Source of the DNA: Oceanobacter sp.
GTDB lineage: Bacteria > Pseudomonadota > Gammaproteobacteria > Pseudomonadales > Oceanobacteraceae
NCBI GenBank assembly: GCA_002733645.1
Contig: NVWL01000023.1
Location: forward strand, 1 to 43,230
Direction: 5' to 3'
DNA: 43,230 bases
Shown: positions 2,957 to 17,130 of the stretch, in pieces
Layout: each line of letters begins with the position of its first letter
Position numbering within the stretch: position 1 is the first letter of the stretch
Notes under the pieces: generated by a model
The model's input: only the letters and a program-made list of their open reading frames with translations
Database searches by the model: none
What the model was told of the DNA's origin: nothing
Made by a program: the position numbers and the translations under genes

Positions 2957-3475
2957 CTAGCCTTGGGTAAAGGTCACGCGTAAATCGACACGTCCTGGCT
3001 CGGTCTGGCGATCAATATTGATCTGCCCAACCTGAACACCTTGAGTGCGAGATAAGCGCTCGATCCATTGGGCGGCATCATCAAACGATGTGTTATCAAC
3101 CCATACACGTAATGACTCGCCATCCTGCTCATATCGAGTGAGCTGTATTTGATCGCGCTTCGCCTGCTGACTCACGACAGCCAGAATAGGCTTGTCGATG
3201 TTTGACGACCTTGGTGATGAGCCGGAAAACCGCGCTCCGTTTTGAGCCATCAACTCATAAAATTGAGTTTTCGTTTCGAGCTCTTTTGATAACTCTCCAT
3301 TTTGACGGATCAACGGTGCGACAAAAATTGAGAATATAACGGCCAGAATAAGTAGGCCAAGCACCAAGCGAACAACCAGTTGATCTCGGGCGGTTTGAGA
3401 TTGATACCAATCTTGCGCTTGTCGAATTCGAGCATCTTCTGCAAATGCTGTGCGAACTTTATCTAGAGCCTTCAA
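2957..3475 (-). CDS. gspM: type II secretion protein M (inner-membrane platform)
   Basis: 172 residues with a cytoplasmic N-terminus, one membrane helix at about residues 35-58 (VRLVLGLLILAVIFSIFVAP) and a periplasmic domain whose ferredoxin-like end reads RVDLRVTFTQG. GspM partners GspL in the assembly platform that ties the GspE ATPase to the pseudopilus. Its ATG overlaps the gspL stop by 4 bases, indicating translational coupling. It is the last gene of the operon; no gspN follows. Sequence conservation in this family is low, so the call rests on topology, length and position. Confidence 0.88.
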   Translation of the reverse strand: MKALDKVRTAFAEDARIRQAQDWYQSQTARDQLVVRLVLGLLILAVIFSIFVAPLIRQNGELSKELETKTQFYELMAQNGARFSGSSPRSSNIDKPILAVVSQQAKRDQIQLTRYEQDGESLRVWVDNTSFDDAAQWIERLSRTQGVQVGQINIDRQTEPGRVDLRVTFTQG

Positions 3476-4677
3476 GCGGCACCTCCTACTTTAACACGGC
3501 CTTTAAACACACCTTTGTCGGCGGTAGCTGAGGATATCTCTGCCGTGAGCCCGCGAGCCTCTAGCGCTTGTTTGAATACTTGTAGATCGCCCTGCTCTTT
3601 AGCCGTCACATCAAGGAGGAACTCTCCCATCCGCTCGGAGTATCGTATGCTTTGAACTTCGATGGAGGCTTTCGCATTCCCCCCGCCCCACGCGTGAGCC
3701 ACTTCTGACATAATAGTGACAAAACCAGCGCCTGATTCTGTGGTGTTCTCGCCACGCAATTTACGACGGAATAATGCCTCGTAGTTGGACGTACGCTCAC
3801 CCGGAAACCAGCGCTTGTACAGAGTCAGACTCGCATCGGAGACCTGATCTACCTTTTGTGTAAGCTGATGATTTGCCACGCTAAGATAAACCACACTCAT
3901 AATCGCAAAAAATGCTGCAAATGCAGCGATACCACGCCACCACGCTGCAGGTTTGTTTTCTTCCGAGGCGCTAAGTACGCGGCCTTGTAACAGATTAACG
4001 TCGGAATCTTCAGAGAACACAGACGTTGTGCTTATCTCGATATCATCGAACGCTTCAGGGTAACCCGTAGCAATCGTACTCTTCAGGAGGTTAGCCTGAT
4101 CGCGAGATGGTGAAGATAGAGAGAGCACTCCATCAAAAGGAGAGTTGGCAACTGACTCTAAAAGCGCCGGGATCGCACTGTCAGGTAGGCGCCCCTCGAT
4201 ACGTCCAGGCAAGGAAACCAACCAATCATCATTACTGCGCGTAATAATATTACCGCTCACTAAAAGAGCCGTCTCAGGGACAAGAGACACTAATCGCACA
4301 TGATGCAGCGCGAGCACTTCCAGTAAGCGATCGACTAGATCAGAGGCAACCAAATACGCCTTGTGGCGACCGGCCACCGAGCCGGAAGGAATGATCGTGT
4401 AATCACTGATATCACCAATCAGCATATCCTCCAGAGCAAAGGGTATTGCACGATTCACGTGACGTCCTTTTACTCCCGGAAGAGATACCCAGCTTGCTGC
4501 ATAATTGTTAGCAGATAGCAGCAGTGATACCGGAGCAAGCTCAGCTTGTTCTTCTGCCCACTTTTCCAAATCAATCGTTTGATCGGCAGCGCGACCTATA
4601 GAGTCATTAGTACTACAAGTGATCATCCAGATCTCCTTGTCGGCATGCCATTCAACTAAATTATTTAACCTTGTCAT
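3472..4677 (-). CDS. gspL: type II secretion protein L (links GspE to the platform)
   Basis: 401 residues. An actin-like cytoplasmic domain occupies about residues 1-245 and includes the recognisable stretch SWVSLPGVKGRHVNRAIPFA and LEDML. One membrane helix follows at about 248-266 (GIAAFAAFFAIMSVVYLSV) and then a periplasmic ferredoxin-like domain. GspL recruits GspE to the membrane. It lies 24 bases after gspK and overlaps gspM by 4 bases. Length and topology are normal for the family. Confidence 0.92.
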   Translation of the reverse strand: MTRLNNLVEWHADKEIWMITCSTNDSIGRAADQTIDLEKWAEEQAELAPVSLLLSANNYAASWVSLPGVKGRHVNRAIPFALEDMLIGDISDYTIIPSGSVAGRHKAYLVASDLVDRLLEVLALHHVRLVSLVPETALLVSGNIITRSNDDWLVSLPGRIEGRLPDSAIPALLESVANSPFDGVLSLSSPSRDQANLLKSTIATGYPEAFDDIEISTTSVFSEDSDVNLLQGRVLSASEENKPAAWWRGIAAFAAFFAIMSVVYLSVANHQLTQKVDQVSDASLTLYKRWFPGERTSNYEALFRRKLRGENTTESGAGFVTIMSEVAHAWGGGNAKASIEVQSIRYSERMGEFLLDVTAKEQGDLQVFKQALEARGLTAEISSATADKGVFKGRVKVGGAA

Positions 4678-4701
4678 TATTTTCTCTAGTTCTAGGTCGC
4701 A

Positions 4702-5670
4702 TCACCAAACTTCCCGCGGCGCGCGTCTTGAAAAATCACGATACATGGTCGTCATACTACCATCTGCGATGGCCCTGTGTATCAACGCCTCAACCGTACC
4801 TATACGCCCATTTAGGTCGATTCTTGCAAATAACTCAAAATATTCAGTAGTTACACCGAAGTCGGAAACCACCATAGCCCCTGTGCTATTGTTTGCCTCC
4901 CCTTCCTCGGTCTTTCCTGCTTCTTGCATAACTCGATTAATCTGACTGGTACCAATGAAATCTTGAACGCTTGAAAAGCCATCGGCTCCACGGCTAGCGA
5001 TAATGGCATCAGCGTCCGCAAGGGTCAGGTTGTTATCCAGTGCTGCCAAAACAAAATTGGTTGCCGTATTTACGTTGAGCTGAGCACTCGCTGGAAGACA
5101 AGTGATATAGGGCTCTATTTTAGCGTAAGCGTCTAAATCTACATTCTCAATCAGCATCAGCTCGCTGGTATGTCGGCATGGCGTGTAAGCTGGGCGATAC
5201 GCTGGCGACAAGCTTAAGTACGTATTATCAACGTTACTCTCTTTGTCCAACCACTGTCGCCATGATGCGGCGATACCTATATCCAACCCCAAAAGATTAA
5301 GCAAGTTGCGAAAACGTGACTCTTGAACAGCAACGGCTCCGCCGGGTGTTAGGCCGTTCAAATTGAAGCGCCCTTGAGCATCTTGAATACGCAACGAAAT
5401 AACGCCAGGGTCGAGCGGAAAGGTTCGCTCGGTTGTCCATTCTTCGGCGGCATGATCAATTTCTTTGTTGGCTTCCCAGTCCAAATATAACCCGGCTTTG
5501 GCGGCGGATTCCGCACCTAATGCAAACAGACGCGCTTGTTGCTGAGCAAATAAAGTTGATGCTCGCCCTAGATCAACCGCTTGGCGCTCTATCATAGTCG
5601 TTGCCAAAATTGCTACGACGGAGAATATGAGCAATACCATCAATAGCACCATGCCGCGTTGGTTTTTCAC
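4702..5670 (-). CDS. gspK: type II secretion minor pseudopilin K
   Basis: GspK is the large minor pseudopilin at the pseudopilus tip. I place the start at GTG 5670 (VKNQRGMVLLMVLL), giving 322 residues: GGAGG lies 6 bases upstream and the GTG overlaps the gspJ stop as GTGA. An ATG at 5700 in the same frame has no comparable site and would overlap gspJ by 34 bases. The prepilin cleavage site is RG|MVLLMVLL; the usual Glu at position 5 is absent, which is normal for GspK. A helix-hairpin-helix-like region (DADAIIASRGADGFSSVQDF) sits in the second half. Confidence 0.93.
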   Translation of the reverse strand: MKNQRGMVLLMVLLIFSVVAILATTMIERQAVDLGRASTLFAQQQARLFALGAESAAKAGLYLDWEANKEIDHAAEEWTTERTFPLDPGVISLRIQDAQGRFNLNGLTPGGAVAVQESRFRNLLNLLGLDIGIAASWRQWLDKESNVDNTYLSLSPAYRPAYTPCRHTSELMLIENVDLDAYAKIEPYITCLPASAQLNVNTATNFVLAALDNNLTLADADAIIASRGADGFSSVQDFIGTSQINRVMQEAGKTEEGEANNSTGAMVVSDFGVTTEYFELFARIDLNGRIGTVEALIHRAIADGSMTTMYRDFSRRAPREVW

Positions 5671-6437
5671 CACAAACCTCCGTCGTGAGCAATCAACCAT
5701 ACCCGCTCTATCTCGCCAAAATGTGTGGTGGTGAAGCGTAATCGTATCGCCGCTGGTGCTTCCCCCACCGTTGGCGTGAGAGGTGGCCAGAAATCATAGG
5801 TATTTAAGGAGATACTGCCGTCTGTTGAGTCTTTGGTGCTTGCTGTGATCGTAAATTCGACATCGTCGATCTGATCCAGCAAAACTTGAGTTTTTGGCTC
5901 GGTATCATCTGCTTGATCAAGCACAGGCCAGTAGTAACGTATGAAACATTCACCGTCGCCGACGTATTCATCTGGATCAAGGCCTTCAGCGGCAGCTAAT
6001 CGCTCTAGTGCTGGCTCGCAAGGCTCAGAGTCAATTTCTTCGGTACGGTATGCCACGCGCTGTAACGTAGAGCGCGGATCATCGGTGATGGGGATGTTAC
6101 GCCAGCCTGCAATGGTGAATTCAATCGGATAATCACCCGACCCGAGCATGAGCTCGGATAAGGTATCCCCATACTCATCACGAATAGGTCGGTCAATAAA
6201 TTGCCCTATGTCACGCCCGAGCACCTGATTAAAACGCTGCATTTCTGCCAGTTCGGCTGAGCGCTCCTCTGTAGCACGACCAATGTTGGATACGTTACTT
6301 AGAAGTTGCACCGCTGCAATGCCAACCATAGCAGAGATCGATACTGCAACTAATACCTCAAGGAGCGTAAAGCCAGCGTGTTTGTTCAGTGCTTTAAAAT
6401 CGTGTTGTTGATGAGCCATCAAAAAGCCGCGTTTCAT
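5667..6437 (-). CDS. gspJ: type II secretion minor pseudopilin J
   Basis: 256 residues with a long prepilin leader ending in HAG|FTLLEVLVAVSISAMVG, including the Glu at position 5 used by prepilin peptidase and methylase. GspJ forms the tip complex with GspI and GspK. The ATG shares its A with the gspI stop (TAATG). The region after the helix is acidic, as is usual for the family. The 3' end overlaps the chosen gspK start by 4 bases. Confidence 0.93.
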   Translation of the reverse strand: MKRGFLMAHQQHDFKALNKHAGFTLLEVLVAVSISAMVGIAAVQLLSNVSNIGRATEERSAELAEMQRFNQVLGRDIGQFIDRPIRDEYGDTLSELMLGSGDYPIEFTIAGWRNIPITDDPRSTLQRVAYRTEEIDSEPCEPALERLAAAEGLDPDEYVGDGECFIRYYWPVLDQADDTEPKTQVLLDQIDDVEFTITASTKDSTDGSISLNTYDFWPPLTPTVGEAPAAIRLRFTTTHFGEIERVWLIAHDGGLW

Positions 6438-6838
6438 TAATGCGGCCCCATAACTGTAGATAAGGTAATCACGTAGTTATCTTTGAACTCTTCGGGAGCA
6501 ACCGATAAGTCTATTCGTACCATGCCGGGGAACTGGGTTTTTTCGACCTTGGTCAGAATATTCCATTCGTTATCCCCCATTTCGATAACGTCTTTATTTT
6601 CGCCCTCTCCTGGCGGAATGCCCGTGAGCTGGATTTCAGCCAAGCGATTTTCAGCAACAAAGGAGGCCATCGTCATCATGCGAACCGACAATAAGTTATC
6701 AACTCGCATACTGGCGGTGTCGGTGATAGTCACAGCAACACCAGCAAAAATTGCCACGGCGATCATAACTTCCAGCAAGGTAAAACCAAGTGAGTGCTTT
6801 AAGCGGCCCAAGGCGTGAGAGTTGAGTGACTTACGCAT
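6437..6838 (-). CDS. gspI: type II secretion minor pseudopilin I
   Basis: 133 residues from the ATG at 6838 (MRKSLNSHALGRLKHSLG|FTLLEVMIAV). The reading frame is open further upstream, but this ATG gives a normal leader length and overlaps gspH by only 8 bases. The helix after FTLLE and the ending NYVITLSTVMGPH fit GspI. Its role is to nucleate the pseudopilus tip with GspJ and GspK. It is embedded in the coupled gspH-I-J-K run. Confidence 0.92.
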   Translation of the reverse strand: MRKSLNSHALGRLKHSLGFTLLEVMIAVAIFAGVAVTITDTASMRVDNLLSVRMMTMASFVAENRLAEIQLTGIPPGEGENKDVIEMGDNEWNILTKVEKTQFPGMVRIDLSVAPEEFKDNYVITLSTVMGPH

Positions 6839-7403
6839 CTGTCCGCTCCATTCTCTGACGTACCGGGCCAACACCATCCCCGCTGAGCGTGATAATAAAA
6901 TCAGGGTCAGCGTCATGAGTAAGGATCATGGTGAATGGCGTGTACTCGTCGGATGACAGAAAGAGCAATGCAGGCTCCGGACCTGTGTCTTCGTCAAATA
7001 ACTCAGAAGGATCAATCTCTTCTTCGTCGATACTTAAGGTAATTTGGACTTCGGCGGGAATGGCGATCGACTGCCCAACATTCACATCAATGCCTTGCCA
7101 CGGGTTTTTCTGCAGCAGTGTTAGCTCTTCGGTCTCTAAATCTTGGGCAACTGATTTCAAACGTAGGTCGTAAAAGCCAAGAAGAATAAACTCCTCAGGC
7201 AACCACCCCACGCCTAAGTCTAGATTTTGAAATACCGCTTCTTCACGGTATTGACCAAACGCTACCGTAATACGATCGGCAAGCTGCTTGGTTTCATCTT
7301 GCGCTGCGCGGTCACTGGCTGACAAATTGACCATCGACAACAAGATGCCGACAATCATTAAAACAACCATTACTTCAATAAGAGTAAAACCGCGCTGGCG
7401 CAT
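6831..7403 (-). CDS. gspH: type II secretion minor pseudopilin H
   Basis: 190 residues starting MRQRG|FTLIEVMVVLMIVGILL, a very short leader with the prepilin peptidase site and Glu at position 5. The globular part is acidic and carries the GspH-type ending FIITLSGDGVGPVRQR. GspH connects the tip complex to the GspG shaft. It begins 5 bases after gspG ends and overlaps gspI by 8 bases. Confidence 0.92.
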   Translation of the reverse strand: MRQRGFTLIEVMVVLMIVGILLSMVNLSASDRAAQDETKQLADRITVAFGQYREEAVFQNLDLGVGWLPEEFILLGFYDLRLKSVAQDLETEELTLLQKNPWQGIDVNVGQSIAIPAEVQITLSIDEEEIDPSELFDEDTGPEPALLFLSSDEYTPFTMILTHDADPDFIITLSGDGVGPVRQRMERTDA

Positions 7404-7408
7404 GGAGG

Positions 7409-7840
7409 TTATAGCTCCTGACTACTGATATCAGCGGCGTCGCCTTCCCCGCCTTCACTGCCATCTGAACCAAGGGAGATGATTTCGTACTTACCCTTAT
7501 CCATGAAGTACATAAATTCACCATCCCAAGAATCCGTTGGTAGCTTGCCACCTTTTAAATAACCACCAGACTGATAGTTCTTTGGCTCTGGTGCGCTGGT
7601 CGGCTTTTGGATTAGAGCCTCTAAGCCTTGTTCTGTTGTTGGATAGCGAAAATTATGCAGCTTGTACATATCCAGCGCCCCCTCAACCAATTTAATTTGG
7701 TTTTTGGTGGTTTTGATACGAGCATCATCCGCAGAGCCAATGATGTTGGTTGCCACCATAGCCAAAATACCGCCAATAATGGCGATTACGACCATGACTT
7801 CAATCAGGGTGAAACCGCTCTGAGACTTGTTTAAACGCAT
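7409..7840 (-). CDS. gspG: type II secretion major pseudopilin G
   Basis: 143 residues beginning MRLNKSQSG|FTLIEVMVVIAIIGGIL. The globular domain has the hallmark YPTTEQGLEALIQKP and DSWDGEFMYF. The C-terminal loop SLGSDGSEGGEGDAADI matches the calcium-binding loop of major pseudopilins. GspG polymerises into the pseudopilus shaft. Length and motifs are typical, and the gene lies between gspF (9-base gap) and gspH. Confidence 0.96.
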   Translation of the reverse strand: MRLNKSQSGFTLIEVMVVIAIIGGILAMVATNIIGSADDARIKTTKNQIKLVEGALDMYKLHNFRYPTTEQGLEALIQKPTSAPEPKNYQSGGYLKGGKLPTDSWDGEFMYFMDKGKYEIISLGSDGSEGGEGDAADISSQEL

Positions 7841-7849
7841 ATATAACTC

Positions 7850-9061
7850 CTATTGCACCATTTGTTGTAATTCGAGAATCGGAAGCATGATTGCCGCAAC
7901 AATAGTTGCAACAATTCCACCCATGATCAAAAGCATCATAGGTTCAAAAATTGAGACTAGGCCTGTCACTGTGTTTTCGAGACCTTTTTCTTGCTGGTCT
8001 GCGGTTCGGGCTAACATGCTGTCTAGCTCGCCACTGCTTTCGCCACTGGCAATCATATGCAGCATAATCGGCGAGAAGAACTGTGACTCTTGCAGAGCTT
8101 TATGCAAACTAGAACCTTCACTGACGCGAGCTGTGGCTGTTGTTAACGCTTGATTAACCGGTACATTAAGTACGACGTCACTGGCAATGCGCATAGCTTC
8201 TACCAATGGCACGCCACTGCTGCTTAGAATAGCTAGCGTGCTGCCAAAACGTGCAGTATTAGCATCTCGCACAAATCGTCCAATGAAAGGTGTTTTGAGG
8301 ACGAGGCTGTGAATGTGTTTTTTAAAGGCAGCGCCGCGCATTAGGTGTACGAATACGGTAAGTGCGAGAACAAAAAAGGCCGCGACATAGATGCCGTAAT
8401 TAGTGATGAAGTAACTCAAATCCAACATGGCTTGAGTTAAACCGGGCAGGTCTTGCCCGTTTTTAACAAATACTTCAACAATGTCAGGCACAACAAACGT
8501 TAGAAGTGCAACTACAAGACCAACCGCAACAAAGGTTAAGGTCAGCGGATAAATAGCGGCTAGACGGATTTTTTGCGCGGACTCATGCGAACGCTCTGAA
8601 TAGTCAGCAAGGCGTACAAGCACGGCAGCGAGATTCCCCGAATGCTCACCAGCACTGACCGTCGATCGGAATAAGAGCGGAAAGGCTCTTGGGTATTCTT
8701 CCAACGCTTTTGCCAGCGTAAAGCCTTCAAGTACCTTAGCGCGGATGGCTAAGACCATGGCTTTGCTTTTTTGCTTTTCGGTTTGGTCGGCCAGTGCTTT
8801 TAATGATTCGTCAATCGGCAGCCCTGCACCAATCAGTGTTGCTAGCTGGCGAGTCAATAAGGCGCGTTCCGATACGGAGAGCGACGGGCCACGATCAAAA
8901 AAACTACGGTCTTTTTGTTTGACCTTGGTCGGCTCGACAGAAAGTGGCATCCAGCCTTTATCCCGTAATTGCTGTCGAATCTGACGCGCACTGTCAGCTT
9001 CTAGTACGCCCTTCTTCTGACGCCCATTTGCATCCAATGCCTGATATAAAAACGCTGCCAT
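7850..9061 (-). CDS. gspF: type II secretion inner-membrane platform protein F
   Basis: 403 residues, the usual size. Two GspF-type cytoplasmic domains are each followed by membrane helices, visible at about residues 170-192, 215-240 and 372-395 (MMLLIMGGIVATIVAAIMLP). The opening FLYQALDANGRQKKGVLEADS is the family N-terminus, and the repeats show ESLKALADQ and EAMRIASDVV. GspF is the polytopic core on which GspE drives pseudopilin assembly. It starts 2 bases after gspE. Confidence 0.96.
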   Translation of the reverse strand: MAAFLYQALDANGRQKKGVLEADSARQIRQQLRDKGWMPLSVEPTKVKQKDRSFFDRGPSLSVSERALLTRQLATLIGAGLPIDESLKALADQTEKQKSKAMVLAIRAKVLEGFTLAKALEEYPRAFPLLFRSTVSAGEHSGNLAAVLVRLADYSERSHESAQKIRLAAIYPLTLTFVAVGLVVALLTFVVPDIVEVFVKNGQDLPGLTQAMLDLSYFITNYGIYVAAFFVLALTVFVHLMRGAAFKKHIHSLVLKTPFIGRFVRDANTARFGSTLAILSSSGVPLVEAMRIASDVVLNVPVNQALTTATARVSEGSSLHKALQESQFFSPIMLHMIASGESSGELDSMLARTADQQEKGLENTVTGLVSIFEPMMLLIMGGIVATIVAAIMLPILELQQMVQ

Positions 9062-9063
9062 GA

Positions 9064-10635
9064 TTAGCCCTTAGATACTCGCAGAAGTTCTTCAATGGTC
9101 GTTTGTCCGGCCAGAACTTTACGAATGCCATCCTGACGGATGCTTGGGCCTAACGTGCGCGCGTGTTTTTCTAAATCCTGCTCACCCGCTTGGTCGTGAA
9201 TCAGGGTTTTCATTGACTCATCAATTTCGATAATTTCATAAATACCCTGACGACCACGATATCCAAGCTGATTGCATTTTTCACAACCCTTGGCGTGATA
9301 AATCATCGGTGCATCTTTTACATCTATTTCCATCAGGCGACATTCAGAAGCGTCCGCTTGAGCGGGTTGTTTACAGTCAGCACACAATACTCGCACTAAG
9401 CGCTGAGCGATAACTCCAATGACGGATGACGATAACAAGAAGGGTTCAACCCCCATATCTTGTAAGCGTGTGATGGCACCTACGGCGGTATTTGTGTGTA
9501 AGGTGGATAACACTAAGTGACCTGTCAGCGAGGCTTGAATCGCAATTTCAACCGTCTCTAGATCTCGAATCTCACCAATCATGACGACATCAGGATCCTG
9601 ACGAAGAATAGCCCTGAGGCCTTTCGCAAACGTCATGTCCGCCTTCAAGTTTACCTGGGTCTGACCAATCCCCGGTAAGCTATATTCCACCGGATCTTCT
9701 ACGGTAAGAATATTTCGACTGGTGTCATTTAACTCGCTAAGCGCACCATAAAGCGTGGTGGTCTTACCTGAGCCGGTTGGGCCGGTAACCAAGATAATAC
9801 CGTGCGGTTTGCTGATGATGTTGCGCATGGTATTTAGATCACGCTCAGCCATGCCAAGCTGTCCGAGCACTAAGCGCCCTGCTTGCTTGTCTAGCAAACG
9901 CATCACAACACGCTCGCCATGGCTGGATGGCATGGTGGAAACACGAACATCGACTTCACGACCACCAATACGTAAAGCGATACGGCCATCTTGTGGGACA
10001 CGCTTTTCCGCGATATCCAGCTTGGCCATGACTTTGATGCGTGAAACCAATAGTGCTGCAAGCGCGCGTTTAGGCTGTACGACTTCGCGTAGTACGCCAT
10101 CAACACGAAAGCGCACAACAAGGCGCTTTTCGTAAGTTTCAATGTGAATATCAGACGCGCCTTCTTTCACTGATTCTGTGAGAAGTGCATTGATAAGACG
10201 TTTAATAGGAGCGTCGCCTTCTTGCTCTAATAGATCTTCAGTTTCAGGGACTGAGTCAGCAAGGCTGGCAAGATCCATGTCATCACCAAGGCCTTCCACC
10301 ATATCCATCGCTTCAGAAGAGTCGCTTTGATAAGCCAAACCTAAGCGACGATCAAACTCATCGTCTGTCACAACAGACAATTGATACGGGCGACTTAAGT
10401 AACGCTGAACTTCCATCAATGCTTGGGCATTTAAACCTTCTTTATGAAGTAAGTTTACATGTCCCGGCTGGCTATCAATTAACACACCGTAGCGTTTTGC
10501 AAAGCTAAATGGCAGCCGCATGGTTAAGCTGCCACTCGTCATTGCTGGCGGCGCTTCTGGTGGAGCCGATTCGACATTAGAACTGGCTTCAAGGTTGTCG
10601 TTAGGCGTGATCGCGACTTCTGTATCTGAATTCAT
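9064..10635 (-). CDS. gspE: type II secretion ATPase E
   Basis: 523 residues. An N-terminal GspL-binding domain ([17 protein letters not shown] at about residue 36) precedes the ATPase core: Walker [11 protein letters not shown] near residue 285, an Asp-rich Walker B ([12 protein letters not shown]) and the His box STLHTNTA. A zinc-binding tetracysteine pair, CADC and CEKC, lies at about 415-450 and separates GspE from PilT. It is a cytoplasmic hexameric motor. It lies 63 bases after the dehydrogenase-like gene and is likely co-transcribed with it. gspC and gspD, which often precede gspE, are not in the window. Confidence 0.96.
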
Positions 10636-10698
10636 AATCTACTTGTTCTCTAATGTCATGATTGAGCTGACATTCTTCTGTGTCGTTTATCAAGTTGT

Positions 10699-12012
10699 TT
10701 ATCGATCACCGCGACCAACGCCTCTATAGACAAAGCCGTTTTGAGTTAAGGTCTCAGGATCGTATTGATTACGACCATCTATTATTATTTTGCTACGCAG
10801 CAACTTAGCAATTGCATTGAAATCTGGTTGGCGGAAAGGTTTCCATTCAGTCATTAGCACCAAAGCATCTGCATCAGGCAAAGCATCATACTGGTGAGCG
10901 CTGAGTGAGAGCTTTTTCAACAACATCTCTGAGGTACCTTGTGAGGCTAACTCGCCAACAGCTTCATTATTCGCTAAAGGATCATACGCTGCCACAATGG
11001 CTCCAGCATCCAGTAATTGACGAATCAATACAATAGCTGGCGATCCAGTGACATCACAGGTTTCTGGTCTAAAGGATAACCCCCAGATGGCAATGCGCTT
11101 TCCAGAGACGGAGCCTAACACTTGAGTTAGTTGCTTAAACGCCCAGTCAGCTTGTTTTTCATTGCGCAGCGCGACAGATTTGAGAAGTATTGGAGAAATC
11201 CCACCTTGCTCGGCTTTCTCAATCAAGGAGCTGACATCATCGGGCAAAGCAAGACCGCCATAGCCAACCCCTGGATATAAGTACGAATAACCAATTCGAC
11301 TGTCAGCGCCTATGCCGCGGCGTACGTTTTCAATATCAACACCTGAAACTTCCGCGATCGCCGCAATTTCATTCATTAAAGAGACACGCGTAGCGAGCAT
11401 GGCGCTGGTCGCAAACCGAGTTAGCTCAACGTCTTTGATCCCCATAAACATTAATCGATCATTCTGGCGTGAGAAGGGTTTAAATAATTCCGACATCTTT
11501 GAGCGTGTTTCGAATGAACTTACACCAAGAACAATACGATCAGGTCGCATGAAATCATCAATCGCGACCCCTTCTTTTAAGAAGTCAGGGTTGGCAACAA
11601 CATCAATAACAAGACCGGTATTGCGAGTTAGTAATTCGGAGTTGATCGCCTCCCCTAGCTGCTCAGTAAACCCAATTTCACCAGAAGTTCGATTGATAAA
11701 AACAAATTCAGAGGTCGCTTGCTCACCTAGGCTTTTCGCTATGGAGAAAGCAGTATCTATTGTTGACGAGGAAGATGCCAAGGCCAAGATAAACACGTCA
11801 CACTCATCAAGAGCTGCGTTTAAATCAAGGGTGTAGCTCAGGCGACGAGCGGCAATATTACTATCAAGCATGGCTTGCAAGCCTGGTTCACGAATCGACG
11901 CATCCGTATTGGCTGGCTGAGGAGTGTAGACAGTGACAAGATTCCCCATTTCCGCAAAACACGCAGATGCAACAAGGGCGGCATAGCCTGAACCGGCTAC
12001 TGAAACTTTCAA
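10699..12012 (-). CDS. UDP-glucose/GDP-mannose dehydrogenase-like protein lacking the catalytic Cys
   Basis: 437 residues covering all three domains of the nucleotide-sugar dehydrogenase family: N-terminal Rossmann (KVSVAGSGYAALVAS), central helical (NPDFLKEGVAIDDFMRPDRI, GADSRIGYSYLYPGVGYGG) and C-terminal UDP-binding (IAIWGLSFRPETCDVTGSPA). The active-site motif, normally GGSCFPKD or similar, reads GGLALPDD: the nucleophilic Cys is Ala255. The active-site Lys and Asn of the central helix read Arg199 and Ser203, the Glu of NPEF is Asp143, and the third Rossmann glycine is Ala. The frame is intact, so this looks like a maintained non-catalytic homologue. The start is TTG at 12012 with AAGGAT 6 bases before it. 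It probably heads the gsp operon. Confidence 0.85.
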   Translation of the reverse strand: MKVSVAGSGYAALVASACFAEMGNLVTVYTPQPANTDASIREPGLQAMLDSNIAARRLSYTLDLNAALDECDVFILALASSSSTIDTAFSIAKSLGEQATSEFVFINRTSGEIGFTEQLGEAINSELLTRNTGLVIDVVANPDFLKEGVAIDDFMRPDRIVLGVSSFETRSKMSELFKPFSRQNDRLMFMGIKDVELTRFATSAMLATRVSLMNEIAAIAEVSGVDIENVRRGIGADSRIGYSYLYPGVGYGGLALPDDVSSLIEKAEQGGISPILLKSVALRNEKQADWAFKQLTQVLGSVSGKRIAIWGLSFRPETCDVTGSPAIVLIRQLLDAGAIVAAYDPLANNEAVGELASQGTSEMLLKKLSLSAHQYDALPDADALVLMTEWKPFRQPDFNAIAKLLRSKIIIDGRNQYDPETLTQNGFVYRGVGRGDR

Positions 12013-12157: not shown

Positions 12158-12188
12158 AAAAAAGCCGACATCAAAATCTGATGTCGGC
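12158..12188 (-). terminator. Rho-independent terminator after etfA
   Basis: A perfect 10-bp stem (GCCGACATCA with its complement) and a 5-base loop are followed on the minus strand by six T. It lies 42 bases past the etfA stop. The remaining stretch, 12013-12157, is the only upstream space for a promoter of the dehydrogenase-gsp operon; I saw no convincing -35/-10 pair there. Confidence 0.9.
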
Positions 12189-12230
12189 CCATTTAAACAA
12201 CCATTGGCAATACGATGGTTGTAAGGCGTA

Positions 12231-13160
12231 TTACAGAGCTGAATCCAACTCAGGAATAGCGTCAAACAAATCAGCAACCAGACCGTAGTCTGCCACTTGG
12301 AAGATAGGAGCTTCTTCGTCTTTGTTGATAGCAACAATAACTTTAGAATCTTTCATACCTGCCAAGTGCTGAATGGCACCAGAGATACCAACAGCAACGT
12401 ACAAATCTGGAGCAACGATTTTACCCGTTTGACCGACCTGCATGTCGTTAGGTACAAAACCAGCATCAACAGCAGCACGAGAAGCGCCCACTGCAGCGCC
12501 AACTTTATCCGCTAATTTGTAGAGCATGTCGAAATTCTCGCCATTGCCCATGCCGCGACCACCAGAAATAACAACGCTAGCCGCTGTTAGCTCAGGGCGA
12601 TCTGACTTAGCCAGTTCTTCACTTGCGAATGCTGAAATGCCAGCATCTTTCGCAATATCAACGGCTTCAGTCGCTGCCGAGCCGCCTTCAGCAGCTGCTG
12701 CATCAAATGCAGTGCCGCGTACAGTCATTACTTTGATGCCATCAGAAGACTTAACAGTTGCGATGGCGTTGCCAGCGTAGATAGGACGCACAAAGGTATC
12801 TTCAGATTCAACACCGATCACCTCAGACACCATGTTTACGTCAAGCAATGCGGCAGCGCGAGGTAAGAAATCCTTACCTGTAGTGGTCGCAGCGGCCAAA
12901 ATATGGCTGTAGCCTTTGCCTAGCTCAGCAACAAGTTCGCCCATGTTTTCAGCGAGCTGATATTCGTACACAGCATTATCTGCAACCAATACTTTGCTTA
13001 CGCCTGCAACTTTTGACACAGCTTCTGCAACTGCTGCGCAGCCGCTACCAGCCACCAATACTTCAACGTCGCTACCAATTTTGGTTGCTGCGGTGATAGT
13101 GTTCAGAGTCGCGCCGTTAAGAGTGGCGTTATCGTGCTCTGCGATTACTAAAATAGCCAT
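12231..13160 (-). CDS. etfA: electron transfer flavoprotein subunit alpha
   Basis: 309 residues, the normal size. The N-terminal domain begins [15 protein letters not shown]. The C-terminal FAD-binding domain shows [51 protein letters not shown] and [19 protein letters not shown], all hallmark ETF-alpha motifs. With EtfB it forms the soluble heterodimer that takes electrons from acyl-CoA dehydrogenases and passes them to ETF:ubiquinone oxidoreductase, encoded divergently nearby. It follows etfB after 14 bases and ends in a strong terminator. Confidence 0.97.
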
Positions 13161-13174
13161 TACACAAACCCCTC

Positions 13175-13924
13175 TTAAAGAACTTTTGCTTCGTTTTTCA
13201 GTTTCTCAACCAGCTCGCTCACGCTACCAACTTTGATGCCGGCTGAACGCTGTGCAGGTGGAGTTACCTTGACTAGAGACAACGAACTCTTAATCTCTAC
13301 ACCTAGATCAGCTGGAGTAGTGATATCTAGAGGCTTACGCTTCGCTTTCATGATGTTAGGCAGTGATGCATAACGAGGCTCATTCAAGCGTAGGTCAACA
13401 GTAACGATCGCAGGTAAATTCAATGCAACAGTACGTGAGCCAGCATCTACTTCACGAGTCACGCTAACTTTGTCGCCATCAATGGCCACTTCAGAAGCGA
13501 AGGTCCCCTGCCCCATACCAGTGAGAGCACCTAGCATCTGACCAGTTTGGTTATTGTCACTATCGATAGTCTGCTTACCCATCAATACCAACTGAGGCTG
13601 TTCTTTTTCAACAACACCTTTAAGAAGCTTAGCAACCGTTAATGGCTCTAGTTTCTCATCAGTTTCAATCAAGATGCCACGATCTGCACCCAGAGCCAGT
13701 GCAGTACGAATCTGCTCCTGAGCTACTTTAGGGCCGATTGAAACCACTACGATTTCAGTAGCTACGCCTTTTTCTTTCAGGCGTACCGCTTCTTCTACGG
13801 CGATTTCGCAAAATGGGTTCATAGCCATTTTGACGTTAGTCAGATCAACATCAGAGTTGTCTGCTTTTACGCGAACCTTCACGTTGTAATCGATCACGCG
13901 TTTTACAGCGACAAGAACCTTCAT
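13175..13924 (-). CDS. etfB: electron transfer flavoprotein subunit beta
   Basis: 249 residues beginning [20 protein letters not shown]. Family motifs are [16 protein letters not shown], the nucleotide-binding stretch [10 protein letters not shown] and the recognition-loop region [19 protein letters not shown], which contacts partner dehydrogenases. EtfB binds AMP and docks the donor enzymes. GAGGAAT precedes the ATG. It is the first gene of the etfBA operon and is transcribed away from the ETF:ubiquinone oxidoreductase gene. Confidence 0.97.
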
Positions 13925-16072: not shown

Positions 16073-16963
16073 CTAGTCGCGCCCAGAAATCTTAAAGGAT
16101 ATGTTATTAAGTGCTAAGTCATTAATTGAGATAGCACCAACCAAGCCGTCACCAACAGTAACTTTAGGCGCAACAATATCCATCACCGTTGGGAGGAGTT
16201 CTATATTTACCGAGTCTTCCTCTGGAGTCAAAATCAACCCTAAGGCAAATGCCCAACTTAAAGGCTTAGACTTTCCAAAAGTTTCAACCTCCTCAATGTA
16301 GTTTGCACCAGCAACAGTCACATCTTCAAATGCTAGTCCATTAGTAGATGCATCAATATCCATATCTTCAATTGCTATATCTGCAGATAAAATAACCTTA
16401 TTACCATCAGGCTCAACTTTCATAAGCAATCCAGCAGCGAGACCAATCATACTAAAGCTATCAACCAGTCTAACCGCTTCGTCGCCGCTTGAATCTAACG
16501 TCGAAATTGCACCCGTAGTAATCTTATAATCTATAAAGTTACCACTAGTTGGATTACCACTAACAACAAGCGCCCCATCAGATTGAATGTCTATTTCGAA
16601 TATAACTTCATCAAGGTTATCACTAGGGTTTGAGACAATGTTATTGTAGTCAAACCATCGAGACTTGTTCTCACCACCAATTTTCAAATCTTTAATTGAA
16701 AACGAGCCGCCATCGCCATCGCTGACATCTATGGTTTGCTCAATTAAGTTACCATTACCATCATCGACAAAAATAATTTCTTGAGTTATTACCTCCGTGT
16801 CGGTATAGCGAATTTCACCAATTTCAATCCCTAAATCAAGCTCGATGTTAACACCTGCCTGACCTGTAACGGAATGGAGTTCGTACTCAGAAAGCGGAGT
16901 CAGCTCGGCATTCACACCCGCTGATATAGCTGCGACGCAGCTAGCTAACAATATTTTTTTCAT
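16073..16963 (-). CDS. secreted DUF6160-like protein
   Basis: 296 residues from the ATG at 16963. The signal peptide is MKKILLASCVAAISAGVNA, cleaved before ELTPL. The mature start LSEYELHSVTGQAGVNIELD resembles the opening of DUF6160 (FilA-like) exported proteins, which are annotated as putative pilus or surface components. The rest is acidic and Asp/Gly-rich, with repeated beta-like stretches and no cysteine. The frame is open 20 codons further upstream, but that would bury the signal peptide. Function is unknown; export to the periplasm or surface is inferred. It could be a type II secretion substrate, but nothing in the sequence proves it. Confidence 0.7.
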   Translation of the reverse strand: MKKILLASCVAAISAGVNAELTPLSEYELHSVTGQAGVNIELDLGIEIGEIRYTDTEVITQEIIFVDDGNGNLIEQTIDVSDGDGGSFSIKDLKIGGENKSRWFDYNNIVSNPSDNLDEVIFEIDIQSDGALVVSGNPTSGNFIDYKITTGAISTLDSSGDEAVRLVDSFSMIGLAAGLLMKVEPDGNKVILSADIAIEDMDIDASTNGLAFEDVTVAGANYIEEVETFGKSKPLSWAFALGLILTPEEDSVNIELLPTVMDIVAPKVTVGDGLVGAISINDLALNNISFKISGRD

Positions 16964-17130
16964 GATAGGCGATCCATCAGTTTTTATAGTTTTATATCCG
17001 TCCAAGTGTAACGGAGCTTTCAAACGCTTCGCAACCTGAATATATCAACACTATCCAAGTTGGCCGGTATAACAAGGGTTTATCAGCGCATTAGGCTGTA
17101 ACTGGCACAATTTGCCATAGAGGAGGCTTT

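Follow-up and report, generated by a model that had tools for sequence, protein, structure and literature searches.

A UDP-glucose dehydrogenase-like gene between etfA and gspE that appears to encode an old pseudoenzyme

In the window, the whole 43,230-nucleotide stretch of Oceanobacter DNA analyzed here, a gene resembling that of UDP-glucose 6-dehydrogenase (Ugd) lies directly before gspE, and its product departs from the family at several catalytic positions. This raises the question of whether the gene is an error, a decaying relic, an enzyme with altered chemistry, or a protein kept for a purpose other than catalysis. The minus strand of the gene is open throughout and the plus strand is rich in stops; the TTG start is preceded a few bases 5' by AGAAGGA. 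The preliminary description had reported an intact frame spanning the three Ugd domains, and the profiles bore this out. PF03721, PF00984 and PF03720 matched above their cut-offs with 86, 87 and 93 bits, and NCBIfam TIGR03026 gave 280 bits (cut-off 189.8), so both the family profile and the three-domain fold of UDP-glucose 6-dehydrogenase were present. The best solved relative found by phmmer was BceC (E 1.6e-98). With the AlphaFold model (mean pLDDT 88.4, pTM 0.83), the best solved Foldseek match was BceC 2y0d, with a TM score of 0.96 and 39% identity. Residues 252-254, in the former catalytic loop, had pLDDT below 50. No extra domain was seen in the Pfam profiles or in the AlphaFold model. 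The features are collected in Table 1.

Table 1. Coordinates of the ugd-like gene, its domains and substituted codons, and its neighbors in the window
Feature	Position	Strand	Basis or remark
Putative ugd-like pseudoenzyme gene	10699..12012	-	437 aa, TTG start
N-terminal NAD-binding domain, residues 1-176	11485..12012	-	PF03721; most eroded part: A12, T30, GTPP motif lost, T109/S110
Central domain, residues 195-285	11158..11430	-	PF00984; R199, S203, A255; kept D259, R239, G252, G253
C-terminal UDP-binding domain, residues 308-419	10756..11091	-	PF03720; best conserved; Lys320 = R315
Ala12 codon, place of third Gly of GxGxxG	11977..11979	-	Alignment to linked orthologues
Asp143 codon, place of NPEF Glu	11584..11586	-	Alignment to BceC 2y0e and linked orthologues
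Arg199 codon, place of active-site Lys	11416..11418	-	Alignment to BceC 2y0e and linked orthologues
Ser203 codon, place of active-site Asn	11404..11406	-	Alignment to BceC 2y0e and linked orthologues
Ala255 codon, place of catalytic Cys	11248..11250	-	Alignment to BceC 2y0e and 28 linked orthologues
gspE, type II secretion ATPase	9064..10635	-	TIGR02533, 699.6 bits, cut-off 630.25
gspF, G, H, I, J, K, L, M, in order	2957..9061	-	Profiles, except gspH (gene order and prepilin motif)
etfA and etfB, upstream neighbors	12231..13924	-	Profiles; ancestral neighbors of gspE
Terminator-like hairpin with a 13-pair stem and a following T run	12162..12190	-	After etfA, before ugd

All five substitutions named in the preliminary description (A12, D143, R199, S203 and A255) held when the protein was aligned to BceC 2y0e and 28 linked orthologues. 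The alignment added T30 in place of the Asp at the β2 end, which we take to be an NAD-site position, the loss of the GTPP motif, TS in place of the ST of KST, and R315 in place of Lys320. The Cys, Lys and Asn required of an active UDP-glucose 6-dehydrogenase were therefore all absent (A255, R199 and S203). The NAD site kept G7 and G9 but not the remainder of what such an enzyme requires, having A12, T30, no GTPP, T109 and S110. On the UDP-sugar side, G252, G253, R239 and R414 (presumably Arg442 of the human enzyme) were kept, and the Lys-to-Arg change at 315 touches a diphosphate contact. The general base Asp264 was present as D259. One source lists 18 residues invariant in 229 family members (PMC4794789); in the numbering of the Streptococcus enzyme, where the catalytic trio is Cys260, Lys204 and Asn208, the window protein keeps 9/18. 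These are Gly7, Gly9, Pro140, Glu201, Asn219, Gly257, Gly258, Asp264 and Asn287, and those lost are Gly12 (to Ala), Thr83 (motif gone), Ser117 (Thr), Thr118 (Ser), Glu141 (Asp), Lys204 (Arg), Asn208 (Ser), Cys260 (Ala) and Lys320 (Arg). For the human enzyme, in which R239 corresponds to Arg260, PMC3184952 describes a Cys-to-Ala mutant that fails to carry UDP-glucose through to the end of the reaction, and strongly lowered activity when Lys is mutated. The window protein is an enzyme homologue without several conserved catalytic residues, as a pseudoenzyme is defined.

Orthologues were compared across 44 genomes of the window's family, with genera labelled g1 (that of the window), g2 and so on. 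The ugd gene adjoined gspE on the same strand in 28/44, so the same-strand linkage to gsp genes expected in relatives for a type II secretion component was observed. On its other side lay etfA in 27 of the 28, the exception being L138, where etfA fell outside the hit list. The 28 linked copies, counting the nearly identical L150 and L151 separately, formed one clade (support 96/99) against an outgroup of 15 unlinked or other Ugd. Eight of the nine genus genomes searched, the window's own included, carry the gene, G003 being the exception. One genus copy, L013 of G001, scored the same as locus L027 of Thalassolituus maritimus, which suggests that the genus is Thalassolituus. The gene does not accompany the type II system everywhere: gspE follows etfA directly in G003, G026, G028, G031 and G036, from g1, g6, g7 and g8, and in seven g4 genomes that also lack ugd. 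Four of the 44 genomes (G013, G018, G032 and G039) could not be assigned to either class. The gap between etfA and gspE in G003 (L114:1283-1488) is about 200 bases long and holds a terminator-like hairpin only, with no visible ugd remnant. Two TAG codons were noted within the gspE match of G012 (C1:1786053-1787612).

Among 145 genomes of the order, a visual comparison of hit coordinates (E 1e-85 and 1e-150) showed same-strand ugd-gspE adjacency in the window's family only. In three genomes of one other family (G067, G106 and G164; L171, L170 and L172), an intact ugd and gspE are divergent, head-to-head, and an epimerase-like frame comes after the ugd. In G064 the two genes are 4.3 kb apart. 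PMC6971210 places gspE2 and ugd of Shewanella vesiculosa HM13 in one polysaccharide gene cluster, not side by side.

The preliminary description had proposed a search for gspE-adjoining orthologues with like losses, and the genus supplied them. Seven of its eight copies keep only 9-11 of the 18 invariants; the eighth (G002) keeps 17. All 18 were kept in 8/28 linked copies (seven of g8, one of g2) and in 63 of 64 unlinked relatives, a difference whose Fisher value of 7e-13 is overstated because the sequences are related and kinship was not corrected for. The single exception among the 64 was a second, degraded Ugd in L106. This Ugd-like frame (L106:8024-9325, in an Agitococcus genome bin) has lost the Cys and NAD-site residues; its NAD domain falls under the Pfam cut-off, and good scores are found for its central and UDP domains. 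Alongside lie an intact ugd, pgi and a gene for a nucleotidyl transferase, and the degraded frame runs off the stretch. It is a separate second case of the same erosion.

Among the linked copies, the Cys was lost in 11/28 and kept in 17/28, and the Asn was kept in 14/28. The Cys gave way to Ala, Gly and His in g1, where four copies keep a Cys, to Phe in g3 and g7, and to Arg and Gln in g6. At a minimum, the Cys state changed 4 times on the ugd tree and 5 times on that of gspE+etfA, with several forks open. According to the preliminary description, linked orthologues that keep Cys, Lys and Asn would point to a sequencing error or recent decay. Such copies do exist (9/28, all in other genera), but they imply an active ancestor rather than either of these. 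A sequencing error, or decay confined to a single genome, was ruled out by the degraded state common to 7/8 genus copies. A recent frameshifted pseudogene was also rejected, as stops and frameshifts were found in 0/28 linked copies.

The erosion was unequal across the protein. Alignment columns that do not vary among 21 intact sequences were traced in five of the seven degraded g1 copies (L013 and L015 left out) and in seven of the 13 other non-intact linked copies (L016, L148, L150, L151, L153 and L154 left out). Catalytic cells had changed in 16/25 cases in g1 and 12/35 in the other degraded copies, and NAD cells in 18/30 and 7/42. UDP-side or structural cells had changed in 5/45 (all Lys320 to Arg) and 0/63, the classes being our own grouping and several members of this last one being structural. 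Among the remaining columns, the changes in g1 and in the other degraded copies came to 113/265 and 95/371 in the N domain, 57/185 and 43/259 in the central domain, and 12/140 and 16/196 in the C domain. The retained UDP-side residues would fit UDP-sugar binding.

The general-base Asp, which would not be needed without catalysis, was kept in 28/28 linked copies, and Tyr10 in 27/28. This retention speaks against a simple reading of no chemistry at all, and it would suit a protein that still catalyzes, though with altered chemistry or a different cofactor, such as a single oxidation step, a different NDP sugar, or NADP. The Lys-to-Arg change preserves charge, some linked copies of g7, g3 and g6 retain most of the NAD site, and the human C276A mutant still oxidized added aldehyde intermediate, according to PMC3184952. 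We nevertheless regard a changed enzyme as quite unlikely. A12, T30, the loss of GTPP and T109/S110 weaken NAD binding alongside the Cys, Lys and Asn losses, no basic residue at the β2 end indicates NADP, and the low-confidence stretch of the model falls in the former catalytic loop.

Selection was estimated in a degraded trio (L012, L013 and L015) that keeps the Cys and has lost NAD residues as well as the Lys, Asn and Glu; for the window copy, a search for relatives near enough for dN/dS found none. The closest degraded pair, L012/L013, gave a dN/dS of 0.055 (95% 0.029-0.091), and the other two pairs gave 0.039 and 0.049. Intact ugd pairs gave 0.023-0.054, gspE in the trio pairs 0.004-0.010, and a g3 pair with Cys to Phe 0.069, with dS near saturation. 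In a neutral simulation, the frame stayed open in 52/300 copies (0.173) at 0.05 changes per site and in 0/300 at 0.3. The rate of ugd relative to gspE+etfA was 2.1 in g8, 3.6 in g7, 7.7 in g3, 8.0 in degraded g1, and 3.4 and 8.0 in two g6 pairs. Constraint on degraded ugd is thus relaxed, as seen from the faster degraded copies (g1 versus g8), but strong. The earlier suggestion of a pseudoenzyme held by selection gained some support here, with seven genus copies both open and degraded and low dN/dS in the trio, which keeps its Cys.

These data bear on a slow decay, in which UDP-glucuronate synthesis passed to an unrelated Ugd, leaving the linked gene redundant, and the degraded copies are stages of its loss. 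Such a course would account for the climb of the rate ratio from about 2 to about 8 and for the clean absence of the gene from the five genomes named above, an absence that also counts against a protein being kept. At least one other PF00984 protein occurs in 26/28 linked genomes, as redundancy would require. Redundancy did not track degradation, however, because a Cys-to-Arg copy is the only PF00984 protein of G025 (G006, at 84% completeness, also shows just one such protein), while genomes of g8 and g2 with an intact copy hold a second one too. With dN/dS of 0.04-0.055 in the trio, no frameshift or stop in the linked copies and the UDP-side invariants spared, we consider slow decay unlikely, though the least so of the alternatives to a retained pseudoenzyme.

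The second PF00984 protein would also be needed by another alternative, that of an inactive subunit which forms mixed oligomers with an active Ugd paralogue and tunes it. There is precedent in other enzyme families, for example a dead decarboxylase paralogue (PMC5201418). Identity with the usual second Ugd reaches only about 25%, and G025 has no other Ugd at all, which makes this arrangement very improbable.

The transcriptional context was then considered. The gap of 63 bp between ugd and the downstream gspE (10636..10698), on the same strand, was as first described; gspC is on another contig. Terminator-like sites numbered 7 in the search against 4.5 expected by chance, and the etfA-ugd hairpin had the longest stem; between ugd and gspE none was found. 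A promoter scan returned 7 sites against 6.8 expected, no better than chance, and none was convincing. The placement of ugd at the head of the type II operon fits the hairpin before it and the lack of one after it, but is not backed by a promoter. Since a hairpin separates etfA from ugd and none separates ugd from gspE, ugd and gspE are likely co-transcribed, as far as the DNA alone indicates. The uninterrupted path into gspE would also suit a leader frame, kept open only so that no stop cuts gspE transcription. We find this scarcely credible, as it explains an open frame but neither dN/dS near 0.05 nor the spared UDP-side residues, and gspE is kept in relatives without the gene. Elsewhere in the window (16073-17023), a DUF6160 protein weakly matched FilA, a pilus protein model, with a score far under the cut-off.

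Taken together, the low dN/dS of the trio, the sparing of UDP-side and structural invariants apart from one Lys-to-Arg change, and the losses across linked relatives make it likely that the gene encodes an old pseudoenzyme, neither an error nor a decaying pseudogene. In the window's family, an active BceC/TuaD-type UDP-glucose dehydrogenase gene would have come to lie between etfA and gspE, and some genera still carry it as an intact enzyme gene. In g1 and parts of other genera, the residues that serve the second oxidation (Cys), the transition-state charge (Lys and Asn) and NAD have been lost, with the fold and the UDP-sugar side retained. Several lineages would have given up catalysis, the gene being retained in order to bind. 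A second Ugd may have allowed the catalytic loss, although intact genomes have one too.

On balance, we think it probable that this pseudoenzyme binds a UDP sugar without oxidizing it and acts by binding, as a ligand-responsive or structural partner. Within this account, we infer UDP-glucose binding, action through a partner, and, from position only, a tie between that partner and type II secretion. The suggested part in secretion, as regulator, sensor or scaffold, agrees with the kept UDP-side residues; its link to secretion is one of gene position, and the case is weakened by the five relatives that keep gspE without the gene. A UDP-sugar sensor, in which a former UDP-glucose dehydrogenase ties type II secretion assembly or output to the sugar-nucleotide (carbon) state, is accordingly put forward as a tentative and rather doubtful idea. 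At this single locus, within one bacterial family, the gene is intact, partly eroded, heavily eroded or absent, and the halves of the enzyme erode unequally. With this series, the passage from enzyme to pseudoenzyme can be tested among close relatives, and a specific connection of sugar nucleotides with type II secretion comes up that is itself open to test.

Searches of the open-licence literature turned up no description of a pseudoenzyme belonging to the UDP-glucose dehydrogenase family. Pseudoenzymes in general keep the fold and lack conserved catalytic motifs, according to PMC10211241, and the window protein does likewise. OpgH and UgtP, described in PMC3723540, are UDP-glucose-responsive moonlighting glucosyltransferases that use UDP-glucose as a nutrient signal and target FtsZ. 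The likeness is one of analogy only, that of a sugar-nucleotide-binding protein reading UDP-glucose as a nutrient signal; unlike the window protein, they have an unrelated fold, are active enzymes, act on FtsZ and have been tested in the laboratory. BceC of Burkholderia cepacia (2y0c/2y0d/2y0e) and the TuaD-type UDP-glucose 6-dehydrogenases (TIGR03026) resemble the window protein in their three domains, length and fold, at 39-40% identity, and share Tyr10, the general-base Asp and most UDP-side residues, but their Cys, Lys, Asn, NPEF Glu and NAD site are replaced in the window protein. The intact gspE-linked Ugd of g8 (seven) and g2 (one) share the locus and clade of the window gene, are about 47-49% identical to its product, and retain every one of the 18 invariants.
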